Part shown: in pieces, positions 61,208-63,951 of the stretch
Layout of the letters: each line of letters starts with the position of its first letter
Numbering within the stretch: position 1 is the first letter of the stretch
NCBI GenBank assembly: GCA_000597885.1
Contig: CP004371.1
Span: 4,989,001-5,053,000 of the forward strand
Reading direction: 5' to 3'
Source of the DNA: Flammeovirgaceae bacterium 311
GTDB taxonomy: Bacteria > Bacteroidota > Bacteroidia > Cytophagales > Cyclobacteriaceae
DNA length: 64,000 nucleotides
Made by a program: the position numbers and the translations under genes
The notes under the pieces: generated by a model
The model's database searches: none
The model's input: only the letters and a program-made list of their open reading frames with translations
Told to the model about the DNA's origin: nothing

Positions 61208-62497
61208 ATGAAGATAGATGTATTGCTTGGCCTTCAATGGGGCGACGAAGGCAAAGGTAAAGTAGTTGATTTTCTGGCACCGGAATACGATGTAGTAGCC
61301 CGTTTTCAGGGTGGACCAAATGCAGGTCATACCCTGGAATTTGATGGGATCAAGCACGTATTGCACCAGATTCCTTCCGGCATCTTTCGCCCGGATATAA
61401 TCAACATCATCGGCAATGGTGTGGTGCTGGATGCCGTAGTGCTGCGCCGGGAGATTGAAGGGCTGAAAAAGTATGGCATTAATGCCTGCAAAAACCTGAT
61501 CATCTCTAAAAAAGCACAGCTTATCTTGCCTACCCACCGGCTAATGGATGTGGCCTCTGAAAAAGCAAAAGGCGTTAGCAAGATTGGGTCTACCCTAAAG
61601 GGGATTGGGCCTACTTATGCCGATAAAATTGCCCGCCAGGGCATCAGGGTAGGAGATCTGCTGTTGCCCGATTTTCAGAAACGCTACGAAGCCCTGCGCG
61701 ACAAGCATATGAATGTACTGGCCTTCTACAACGAACCTGTAGAATTAGCCGAAGCCGAAGAAGCTTTTTTCGAGGCTGTAGAATACATGAAGCAGTGCAA
61801 ATTTGCAGATACTGAATATCTCATTAACAAATACATCAAAGAAGGTAAAGGCATTCTGGCCGAAGGGGCCCAGGGTTCTTTGCTGGATATCGACTTTGGC
61901 AGCTATCCTTATGTAACCTCCTCCAATACCATGGCGGCAGGTGCCTGCACAGGGCTTGGTATTGCGCCTGCTTCAGTAGGGGAGGTGTATGGCATCTTTA
62001 AAGCTTACTGCACCCGCGTTGGTAGCGGACCATTCCCCACTGAGCTGCACGACGAAACCGGAGAGCGCATGCGTAAAGAAGGGAATGAATTTGGCTCTAC
62101 CACCGGGCGTCCGCGTCGTTGCGGCTGGATGGATATCCCCGCCCTGCGATACGCCATTCTGCTCAATGGTGTAACACAGCTTTTTATGATGAAAGCCGAT
62201 GTGCTGAATATTTTTGAAGAAATAAAAGTCTGCACACACTACCAGTTGCCTGATGGCAGCACAACAGAAGAGCTGCCGTACGATATGGATGCTGTGCAGG
62301 TAACGCCTGTATACAAAACACTGTCCGGATGGAACCAGAGCCTTAAAGGCATCAGGCAGTATAATGATTTGCCGCAGGCTTTACTGGATTATGTAAGCTA
62401 CCTGGAGCAGGAACTGGGCGTACCCATCAACATCATCAGTACCGGACCGGATCGTACCCAAACCATCATCAGGAAAAAAATAAAGGAAACTATTTAG
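61208..62497 (+). CDS. purA: Adenylosuccinate synthetase
   Basis: First committed AMP-branch enzyme: IMP + Asp + GTP to adenylosuccinate. 429 residues, full length. GLQWGDEGKGK (about residues 8-18) is the GTP/catalytic loop with the catalytic Asp; FQGGPNAGHT (about 34-43) includes the catalytic His; TTGRPRRCGWMD (about 298-309) and the late STGPDRTQTI (about 413-422) are family motifs. It uses aspartate, as does AsnA encoded downstream. Confidence 0.97.
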   Translation: MKIDVLLGLQWGDEGKGKVVDFLAPEYDVVARFQGGPNAGHTLEFDGIKHVLHQIPSGIFRPDIINIIGNGVVLDAVVLRREIEGLKKYGINACKNLIISKKAQLILPTHRLMDVASEKAKGVSKIGSTLKGIGPTYADKIARQGIRVGDLLLPDFQKRYEALRDKHMNVLAFYNEPVELAEAEEAFFEAVEYMKQCKFADTEYLINKYIKEGKGILAEGAQGSLLDIDFGSYPYVTSSNTMAAGACTGLGIAPASVGEVYGIFKAYCTRVGSGPFPTELHDETGERMRKEGNEFGSTTGRPRRCGWMDIPALRYAILLNGVTQLFMMKADVLNIFEEIKVCTHYQLPDGSTTEELPYDMDAVQVTPVYKTLSGWNQSLKGIRQYNDLPQALLDYVSYLEQELGVPINIISTGPDRTQTIIRKKIKETI

Positions 62498-62505
62498 CCA
62501 TTCCT

Positions 62506-62537
62506 TTTGTCAATTCGCAACGATTACTATATCTTAG
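62506..62537 (+). promoter_or_regulatory. Promoter of the asnA leader
   Basis: TTTG (62506-62509), 20 bp, TATCTTAG (62530-62537; TAnnTTTG with one mismatch). A start near 62543 would place the first leader frame about 20 nt into the transcript. Confidence 0.55.
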
Positions 62538-62562
62538 TGTAAATACTTGAAAGAAGTAGCAA

Positions 62563-62637
62563 ATGCTTTACCAAATCAATAATAATCACAATTCAAATTG
62601 CCTGAATAATAAACAGGCCCTGGAAGGTTATTGTTGA
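62563..62637 (+). CDS. Asn-rich leader peptide 1 of asnA
   Basis: A 24-codon frame, ATG 62563 to TGA 62635. Seven Asn codons, all AAT, at residues 6, 7, 8, 10, 12, 15 and 16. Asn-rich content directly upstream of asparagine synthetase, plus a terminator 40 nt after the stop, marks it as an attenuator leader. RNA 62622-62629 (GGAAGGTT), inside the last codons, can pair over 8 bp (one G-U) with the whole 5' arm of the terminator (62677-62684). A ribosome finishing at the stop would cover that segment and let the terminator form; one stalled at the Asn codons would leave it free. Seen: frame and pairings. Inferred: function. Confidence 0.8.
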   Translation: MLYQINNNHNSNCLNNKQALEGYC

Positions 62638-62676
62638 TCCTGAACATGTAGATCCACAGGATAAATATATCAGCAA

Positions 62677-62705
62677 AGCCTTCCTTAAACAGGGAAGGCT
62701 TTTTT
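62677..62705 (+). terminator. Attenuator terminator 1 (asnA leader)
   Basis: Stem AGCCTTCC/GGAAGGCT (62677-62684 and 62693-62700) with an 8-nt loop and a T run. Its 5' arm is the partner of the antiterminator segment in leader frame 1. It also serves as purA readthrough stop. Confidence 0.92.
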
Positions 62706-62739
62706 GTTCCCTGCTGCTCGCATTATTAATTTAAATAAC

Positions 62740-62847
62740 ATGTACCAGTACAGCATCAGTAATAGTTGTAATCGTAATGATAACTCTCCCCCCAAGGGTG
62801 AGCTGGCCTGGTCATATCCCTACAGAGCCCTCTCACCCAGCCGGTAG
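62740..62847 (+). CDS. Asn-rich leader peptide 2 of asnA
   Basis: A 35-codon frame, ATG 62740 to TAG 62845, starting 35 nt after terminator 1. Asn codons at residues 8, 11, 13 and 15 (three AAT, one AAC). Like leader 1 its second-to-fourth residues include YQ. Three mutually exclusive helices can form: 1:2 CTCTCCC (62784-62790) with GGGTGAG (62796-62802), one mismatch; 2:3 GGGTGAG with CTCACCC (62832-62838), 7 bp perfect; 3:4 the terminator (62826-62853). Helix 1 begins at the last base of the final Asn codon, so a ribosome stalled there masks it. The frame ends inside the terminator, unlike classical leaders. Confidence 0.72.
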   Translation: MYQYSISNSCNRNDNSPPKGELAWSYPYRALSPSR

Positions 62848-62857
62848 AGGGCTTTTT
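62826..62857 (+). terminator. Attenuator terminator 2 (asnA leader)
   Basis: Stem AGCCCTCT/AGAGGGCT (62826-62833 and 62846-62853) with a 12-nt loop and a T run, 50 bp before the asnA start. The 5' arm and loop overlap CTCACCC (62832-62838), the partner of the antiterminator. Confidence 0.92.
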
Positions 62858-62907
62858 ATTGCTCATACCACTAACAAGATTATACAAGCTAAAATATTCA
62901 AATACCA

Positions 62908-63951
62908 ATGAAAGCCCATTCAGCAACTGCACATGATACTCAGGCTCCGGCCTTAAGCCCGCTGGCACTTGAATTAGCCATTGAGCTGGTAAAAACCGAG
63001 TTCTCCTCACAGCTGGCCAGACACCTGAACCTTTATAAGGTAACTGCGCCTATGTTCGTGAAAAAGGGGACCGGAGTTAATGACGACCTGAATGGTACCG
63101 AAAAAGCGGTGAGCTTTTCTGCTCCTGCCCTGGATGGCTGCACTGTAGAAATAGTGCATTCATTGGCCAAGTGGAAAAGAATGAAGCTGGGGCAGCTGGG
63201 CCTTCAGATAGGAGAGGGCATTTATACCGATATGCGTGCCATCCGTGCCGATGAAGTACTTAGCCCCCTGCACTCACTCTATGTAGATCAGTGGGACTGG
63301 GAGAAAGTGATCTCTCCGGCCGACCGCAGGCTGGATACACTTAAAGCCACAGTTCACTCTATTTATGGGGCAATGAAAGCCACAGCGGAAACCCTTCGGA
63401 ATAAATTTGCAGATATAGTGCCTCAGCTGCCCGAGGAGATCACCTTTGTACATGCTGAAGAACTGGAGGCAAAATATCCGCAGCTTACGCCCAAGCAGCG
63501 CGAAGATGAAATTACCAGAGCCCTGGGAGCTGTTTTTTTGATTGGCATTGGAGGTACTTTGCCAGGTGGAGAACCTCATGATGGCCGTGCTCCTGATTAC
63601 GACGACTGGAGCACCCCAAGCCCCGAGGGGTTCAAAGGCCTGAACGGTGATATTCTGGTATGGAACGCTGTGCTGGGCAGGTCGTTTGAGTTATCTTCCA
63701 TGGGCATCCGGGTAGATGCCTTAACCCTTAAACGCCAGCTCGACCTTGCCGGCTGCCCCGAAAAGAGTAGCCTTGGCTTCCATTCAGCGCTGCTGGCAGG
63801 TAAACTGCCTCAAACCATGGGCGGTGGCATTGGCCAGTCCAGGATGTGCATGTTCCTGCTGGGCAGAAAGCATATTGGCGAAGTACAGGTCAGCCTGTGG
63901 CCTGATGAAATGCTGGGAGCCTGTGCGACAGAGGGTGTAAACCTGCTGTAA
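62908..63951 (+). CDS. asnA: Aspartate--ammonia ligase (asparagine synthetase A)
   Basis: Class II aminoacyl-tRNA-synthetase-like enzyme (347 residues) making asparagine from aspartate, ammonia and ATP. FVKKGTGVNDDLNGTEKAVS (about residues 48-67) with VNDDLNG is the AsnA signature; VHSLAKWKR (about 81-89), DMRAIRADE (about 109-117) and the late GGGIGQSRMCMFLL (about 305-318) are the catalytic/ATP motifs of the family. Slightly longer than E. coli AsnA at the N-terminus. Expressed behind two Asn-rich attenuators. The last 49 bp of the window after it show nothing recognisable. Confidence 0.95.
   Translation: MKAHSATAHDTQAPALSPLALELAIELVKTEFSSQLARHLNLYKVTAPMFVKKGTGVNDDLNGTEKAVSFSAPALDGCTVEIVHSLAKWKRMKLGQLGLQIGEGIYTDMRAIRADEVLSPLHSLYVDQWDWEKVISPADRRLDTLKATVHSIYGAMKATAETLRNKFADIVPQLPEEITFVHAEELEAKYPQLTPKQREDEITRALGAVFLIGIGGTLPGGEPHDGRAPDYDDWSTPSPEGFKGLNGDILVWNAVLGRSFELSSMGIRVDALTLKRQLDLAGCPEKSSLGFHSALLAGKLPQTMGGGIGQSRMCMFLLGRKHIGEVQVSLWPDEMLGACATEGVNLL

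Follow-up and report, generated by a model that had tools for sequence, protein, structure and literature searches.

Features between purA and asnA

The window analyzed here is the whole 64,000-nucleotide stretch of the Flammeovirgaceae bacterium 311 genome presented above, and all of the features described at this locus lie on its forward (+) strand. asnA, which encodes aspartate--ammonia ligase and is the gene proposed to be regulated (62908 to 63951), occupies the end of the window. Its upstream neighbor is purA (adenylosuccinate synthase; 61208 to 62497), which lies outside the attenuator. Both genes were identified with NCBIfam models (TIGR00184/NF002223 for purA and TIGR00669 for asnA, the latter at 412.6 bits against a cutoff of 292.8), and they are separated by a gap of 410 bases that contains two leader open reading frames (ORFs) and two terminator hairpins. 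An earlier reading of this DNA, made from the letters alone (the sequence-only reading), had described two leader/terminator units in series in this gap, each with an alternative pairing that would destroy its terminator, and both units and both pairings are present.

A promoter-like sequence, TTTG / TATCTTAG with a spacing of 20 nt, was picked out by eye at 62506 to 62537, 25 nt 5' of leader 1, by comparison with what we take to be the relevant consensus. A perfect TAnnTTTG is found 18 to 32 nt 5' of leader 1 in 6 of the 16 loci tested and the remainder have one or two mismatches, a count made without a shuffle control.

In unit 1, leader ORF 1 (62563 to 62637), which appears in the ORF list and is matched in relatives, encodes MLYQINNNHNSNCLNNKQALEGYC, a peptide of 24 amino acids with 7 Asn codons, all of them AAT; it is the 24-codon frame of the sequence-only reading, and a hairpin and T run follow it as claimed. 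Its first Asn codons (region 1, 62575 to 62587) are paired with 62626 to 62638 in the minimum free energy fold, forming what we call the protector helix. Region 2 (62622 to 62634, GGAAGGTTATTGT, beginning GGAAGG) is the antiterminator strand, identified from pairing conservation and stalling folds, and can pair with the left arm of the terminator. That intrinsic terminator (regions 3 and 4, 62675 to 62702; hairpin scan and alignment) has arms at 62675 to 62686 and 62691 to 62702, 12 pairs, and a loop of 4, and is followed by a T run. The fold energy of unit 1 has a z score of −4.68 relative to shuffles and was reached by 0 of 200 of them.

Leader ORF 2 (62740 to 62847 in the sequence of this genome) begins with ATG at 62740 and ends at a stop (62845 to 62847) that falls inside the terminator; it encodes MYQYSISNSCNRNDNSPPKG..., 35 amino acids with 4 Asn codons followed by Pro-Pro. 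The ORF list gives 47 amino acids from an upstream TTG, and the length of 35 is counted from the ATG. Region 2 of this unit is GGGTGAG (62796 to 62802), which by eye pairs with CTCACCC (62832 to 62838) as the antiterminator. The terminator (62824 to 62855) has arms at 62824 to 62833 and 62846 to 62855, with 10 pairs and a loop of 12, followed by T; a hairpin scan restricted to loops of 3 to 8 did not report it. Region 2 and the terminator were both located from the sequence, an alignment of four genomes (A3), and the stalling folds. The fold energy of unit 2 has a z score of −3.06, reached by 3 of 200 shuffles.

Under a rule that defines a unit as an ATG-initiated ORF of at most 60 amino acids with at least 4 Asn in 13 codons, followed by a perfect terminator, the real gap yields both units, and not one unit was obtained in 2,000 dinucleotide shuffles of the gap. 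We also scanned the window and 60 further stretches of its genome (1.264 Mb; 894 regions upstream of ORFs of at least 150 amino acids) with a stricter Asn fraction, below which window unit 2 falls. A terminator is contained in 107 of the 894 regions, and the only Asn unit is that of asnA. The same rule applied to other residues returned 0 to 6 regions each (Ser, 6; Leu, 6; Ala, 5; Gln, 4; Lys, 3; Arg, 2; Ile, 2; Pro, 1; Thr, 1).

Pairing conservation and simulated stalling

We aligned 30 first or single units (alignment A2). This alignment omits L080, a copy of L134; six loci that are too distant to align (L078, L099, L139, L141, L142, and L145); and two that were found later (L264 and L265). 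Without prompting, RNAalifold recovered both the terminator and the pairing of the first Asn codons to region 2. In the protector helix, 94.2% of cells are paired, 22 cells carry double changes, and the covariation score is 0.398, each of these values being reached in 0 of 500 shuffles, although relatedness alone, in the absence of any structure, can carry sequences beyond such shuffles. The number of pairs with a double change was reached in 11 of 500 shuffles and that of further pair types in 139 of 500, so that two of the five measures were not extreme. Slid versions of the helix were paired in only 26 to 59% of cells. Paired cells in the terminator likewise exceeded the shuffles (0 of 500). 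The sequence-only reading had proposed an alignment of upstream regions as a check, and in these 30 units the Asn codons are conserved and the protector helix covaries.

The antiterminator behaves differently from the protector helix. Its pairs are kept in 99.6% of the cells of A2, and because the helix hardly varies in these 30 units, it carries no covariation by itself; near invariance is what would be expected of a segment that has to match two partners. Between families, both antiterminator segments change together, as judged by eye: GGAAGGCT/AGCCTTCC in family f13, GAGAGGCT/AGCCTCTC in L141, GAAAGG/CCTTTC in L139, and CCGGAAG/CTTCCGG in L142.

Stalling was simulated by folding the RNA through its terminator loop, with one codon after another occupied by a ribosome footprint of 27 nt. 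The test covered 26 units: 20 from the 10 tandem loci, those of L003, L142, and L145, and 3 from the 22 f13 loci. Folds with the ribosome on the middle Asn codon were compared with folds at the stop, and the shuffles permuted single bases in the segment that separates the last Asn codon from the terminator. In window unit 1, the antiterminator had a probability of 0.82 at every Asn codon and 0.01 at the stop (0 of 100 shuffles); in window unit 2, the corresponding values were 0.70 and 0.15 (1 of 100 shuffles). In silico, therefore, stalling at the cognate codons frees the antiterminator in both window units and a ribosome at the stop does not, as expected of a ribosome-mediated attenuator. In unit 2, the free RNA already favors the antiterminator (0.70), and a protector helix is not evident there; among second units, only that of Mesonia is clearly protected (0.04 free).

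Across the set, the stalled-minus-stop difference was reached by at most 5 of 100 shuffles in 20 of the 26 units (means, 0.60 versus 0.13). The six units that did not exceed the shuffles were those of L003, L004, and L005 (unit 1), L110, L134, and L145. In L003, L004, L005, and L110, the stop lies beyond region 2 and the antiterminator still has a probability of 0.49 to 0.83 with the ribosome at the stop; the codon profiles of L003, L004, and L005 (unit 1) show the antiterminator blocked soon past the last Asn codon. L134 failed in part because Asn is the final residue of its leader, so that region 2 was misplaced. By our own reading of the profiles, the switch occurs at the last Asn codon or no more than three codons later in 19 of the 26 units.

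Units before asnA in other genomes

An Asn leader with a terminator precedes asnA in 39 of the 195 loci read, and these 39 belong to at least five family-level groups; because four genomes were counted twice (L008/L052, with identical asnA starts, L111/L030, L134/L080, and L137/L062), this corresponds to 38 of 191 distinct loci. The 195 comprise 161 catalogued loci plus 4 and 30 later ones, drawn from samples that overlap. asnA was present in 28 of 148 genomes searched in the family of the window, 38 of 390 in the order, 23 of 395 in the class, 5 of 46 in the order of G767, and 1 of 36 in the order of G803. Further loci came from the family of G571 (f53), in which 364 of 399 genomes have asnA and 30 loci were read, and from the best 80 of at least 589 named loci, near relatives excluded. 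Two loci (L123 and L131) fell below the automatic thresholds, having been scored as lacking a unit or a terminator, and were added after their sequences were read. L145, with 4 Asn in 18, was counted as a weak case. Two candidates, L111 and L030, were rejected as units because the stop lies inside the hairpin, and L148 was rejected because it has no Asn cluster.

All five of the nearest genomes (L001 to L005, the window's own included) have an Asn leader and terminator before asnA, and in four of them the units are in tandem. The fifth, L003 (G099), has the first unit only, though it is congeneric with the tandem L005, and may reflect either a loss or a unit never gained. The 10 tandem loci are L001, L002, L004, L005, L078 (Mesonia), L099 (a Bacteroidales MAG), L139, L141, L264, and L265. 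Family f13, whose leaders agree with those of Hymenobacter and Solirubrum among the named loci, has one unit in 22 of 24 loci. The other 156 of the 195 loci showed no unit, and two of these (L020 and L055) offer fewer than 150 bases of upstream sequence. In f53, the 30 loci examined yielded no complete unit, and a loose Asn-rich ORF in 3 cases.

The sequence-only reading had stated that related genomes lacking these features would count against it. Its expectation holds for the five nearest genomes and for the recurrence of units outside the family; it does not extend to the family as a whole, where 5 of 29 asnA loci have a unit and 24 do not. Leader sequences diverge among loci but keep their Asn runs and complementary segments. 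Of 161 loci, only L001 to L005 have a purA C-terminal motif 5' of asnA within the stretch of sequence examined; the units thus go with asnA. In a quick AsnA tree (163 rows, L266 and L267 excluded), tandem versus other arrangements took at least 6 changes and any unit versus none took 5, with the placement of L078 and L099 unsure because of their long branches.

No Asn unit with a terminator was found before 30 asnB loci, drawn from many matches in 139 of 148 genomes, where there were 3 loose Asn-rich ORFs without a terminator. The best asnB matches of G000, G030, and G101 also lacked an Asn unit, that of G000 being the one tested of 5. A covariance-model search returned matches in 184 of 241 genomes at an E value of ≤0.01, with only 12 candidates scored per genome; we judged these E values to be inflated by AT-rich sequence and therefore counted only the 8 matches of at least 95 bits (the next was 48). 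Six of the 8 precede asnA, and those of G268 and G357 do not.

The latter two genomes belong to a Hymenobacter-like genus (g96) that also includes the Hymenobacter pini copy, L134. Each has an Asn leader and terminator (L269:1311-1461 in G268 and L270:1315-1469 in G357) that is not followed by asnA in the 5 kb examined, and the next long ORF runs in the opposite direction. Both genomes are absent from the 38 genomes of the order that have asnA, and their leaders are probably orphans left after the loss of that gene.

Other arrangements were seen upstream of asnA. In L007, L008, L010, L015, L017, and L021, from the family of the window, asnA follows a PF10282 lactonase gene without a leader unit. 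An adjacent AsnC/Lrp regulator of asnA in unit-less relatives was considered and rejected for these six loci, since their upstream ORF of about 150 amino acids corresponds to the C-terminal portion of a lactonase with 7 blades (PF10282). L030 (a Sporocytophaga MAG), L111, and L112 (f16) share a common hairpin, GGAATAGCAAT..ATTGCTATTCC, about 190 to 250 nt 5' of asnA, without such an Asn leader.

Proposed control of asnA

We consider it very probable that asnA at this locus is under ribosome-mediated attenuation that responds to asparagine. The occurrence of units in relatives, the covarying protector helix, and the switching in simulated stalling support the Asn-codon attenuation put forward in the sequence-only reading. 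The asnA mRNA would begin just downstream of purA and carry two attenuators in series, in each of which a ribosome would trail RNA polymerase along the short Asn-rich leader. When charged tRNA-Asn is scarce, the ribosome would stall on an Asn codon, in unit 1 also disrupting the protector helix; region 2 would then pair with the left arm of the terminator to form the antiterminator, and transcription would continue. When charged tRNA-Asn is plentiful, the ribosome would move past the Asn codons and cover region 2, the terminator would form, and the transcript would end. asnA would be transcribed only when the polymerase clears both gates.

Second leaders have a signature of their own. In 9 of the 10 second leaders (window, 62780 to 62803; L002, L004, L005, L099, L139, L141, L264, and L265), the Asn run is followed by Pro-Pro or Pro-Pro-Pro, Mesonia (L078) being the exception, versus 0 of 37 distinct first or single leaders; the ten second leaders come from few lineages, so that the count is not independent and the Fisher P value (7e-9), uncorrected for relatedness, overstates the difference. 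In the nine Pro-Pro leaders, the antiterminator falls from a probability of 0.6 to 0.8 before or at the first Pro to 0 to 0.4 by the last Pro codon, and a pause at these codons would help gate 2 to close. It is possible that second units act as dual or braked sensors, in which Pro-Pro, dependent on EF-P or tRNA-Pro, slows the ribosome where it blocks the antiterminator. Gate 2 would then close more tightly or respond to a second input, in addition to Asn attenuation and not in place of it. The distribution of Pro-Pro, the varied codons that encode it (CCA, CCC, CCG, and CCT), and the blocking of the antiterminator at those codons favor this idea, as does mgtP in the Salmonella mgtCBR leader, described in PMC3641672 as a proline-codon attenuator within a tandem leader. 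The few lineages and the Mesonia leader weigh against it, and the Pro codons could instead reflect C-rich RNA opposite a G-rich region 2. Tentatively, we speculate that the arrangement is a conserved two-gate Asn sensor with a classical, protected gate 1. Gate 2 would be of a distinct type, in which the Pro-Pro brake holds the ribosome over the antiterminator strand and thereby tightens the gate or makes it sensitive to proline or EF-P status as well. Several Bacteroidota lineages would have retained or reacquired this layout for an ultrasensitive or two-threshold response of asnA.

In the window genome itself, we think it reasonably likely that both gates still work, but the second leader is unusual. 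The 35-codon frame with 4 Asn codons given by the sequence-only reading is present as read; its length is probably the product of a frameshift. In three tandem relatives of the same clade, leader 2 has 16, 17, and 18 codons and ends with TGA or TAG at or just before GGTGAG, so that the 35-codon form is peculiar to the window genome, and the Asn codons number 4 compared with 5 to 6 in the relatives. Alignment A3 places a probable frame change relative to the three relatives at a run of six C residues at the Pro codons (62788 to 62793), which may reflect either genuine decay or a misassembly.

A rather unlikely reading of these observations is that only unit 1 works here and that unit 2 is decaying after the frame change, so that asnA would now have one Asn gate, like that of G099 and the Hymenobacter-like genomes. 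Single-unit relatives do exist, the leader enters its own terminator and has fewer Asn codons than its counterparts, and with a simulated ribosome at the displaced stop, terminator 2 has a probability of 0.00; such a ribosome would cover terminator 2, and gate 2 may therefore leak in this genome. Yet GGTGAGC, which is invariant in all four genomes of A3, and the AGCCCTCTCACC segment are intact in window unit 2, the unit still switches at its Asn codons beyond all but 1 of 100 shuffles, and the change itself may not be real if the C run was misassembled. It is very improbable that the terminators merely end purA transcription, with the Asn-rich ORFs fortuitous or encoding small proteins with another role, since, even though unit 1 lies directly 3' of purA and the same hairpin motif follows apparently ordinary genes at sites 1099507 and 6394318 of this genome, other families have units before asnA without the purA motif, none of the 2,000 shuffles gives a unit, leaders that otherwise diverge retain their Asn runs and complementary segments, and covariation in RNA helices is not what a protein role would lead one to expect.

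The proposed attenuation of asnA by Asn codons has well-known counterparts. The trp, his, leu, thr, and pheA leaders of enterobacteria are ribosome-mediated amino acid attenuators, and the locus described here resembles them in its cognate-codon leader ORF, its 1:2 protector, 2:3 antiterminator, and 3:4 terminator helices, and the cognate biosynthetic gene downstream; it differs in the asparagine signal, the asnA target, the Bacteroidota host, and the presence of two complete units in series. The Asn T-box riboswitches of Firmicutes sense uncharged tRNA-Asn by direct tRNA binding, without a leader peptide, and can be tandem. They share with the control proposed here the charging of tRNA-Asn as the signal and the possibility of tandem arrangement, and the leader peptide is the feature that sets the asnA units apart. 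An Rfam search at E values up to 10 gave 9 matches, none at the gathering score (best, Phe_leader at 24.1 bits versus 55), and a T-box was rejected because none was among them.

A further leader of this general kind was seen in the window's genome. L271 (G000:C1:6438396-6438543, − strand) contains a leader rich in Thr and Ile, MRSNLFNTIIIITSGIITITGITGCARGKASNKN, and a terminator that is almost the same as that of unit 1, and this leader (MRSNLFNTIIIITSGIITITGITGC...) lies directly 5' of thrA, which encodes an 816-amino-acid bifunctional aspartate kinase/homoserine dehydrogenase. It is a probable thr attenuator, and the lineage thus seems to use such control for more than one amino acid.

Within the phylum, the main text of PMC9723704 reports strong clues for leader-peptide attenuation upstream of amino acid biosynthesis operons in Flavobacterium psychrophilum, together with family-conserved 5' elements such as those of pheA, hisG, ftsY, acsA, alaS, and rimP and a supplementary list of 64 structured 5' regions. 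The phylum is the same as that of the window; the term "asparagin" does not occur in that main text. The Salmonella mgtCBR mRNA leader, as described in PMC3641672, has two leader ORFs that each control transcription into the operon and sense different signals, ATP and proline. It resembles the asnA locus in having two leader ORFs, one of them with Pro codons; the leaders of the asnA locus are both Asn rich, and Pro-Pro is also present in 9 of 10 second leaders. The part of PMC4974804 that we covered mentions tandem attenuators of Mg transporters only, and PMC1262725 contains none of the terms "asparagin," "asn," or "tandem." No Asn attenuator was found among the titles and abstract openings listed by our literature searches, and the sequence-only reading likewise knew of no described tandem Asn attenuator controlling asnA. 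The mechanism is known in kind; what appears to be new within the literature searched is the Asn signal, the phylum in which it occurs, and the tandem layout with one signal read twice.

Because the design recurs in distant Bacteroidota, members of this phylum that carry these units probably sense asparagine shortage by ribosome stalling, sometimes with two gates in series. The locus would provide an Asn-specific ribosome-stalling attenuator in a phylum in which such systems have barely been described. With the same signal read twice in one leader, it would also be a natural case, in a compact module of 400 bases, that makes testable what two like sensors in series gain: multiplied repression, a sharper response, or two thresholds. 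The Pro-Pro signature, if it acts as we speculate, would extend the textbook model of attenuation by a brake on the ribosome that is built into the leader.
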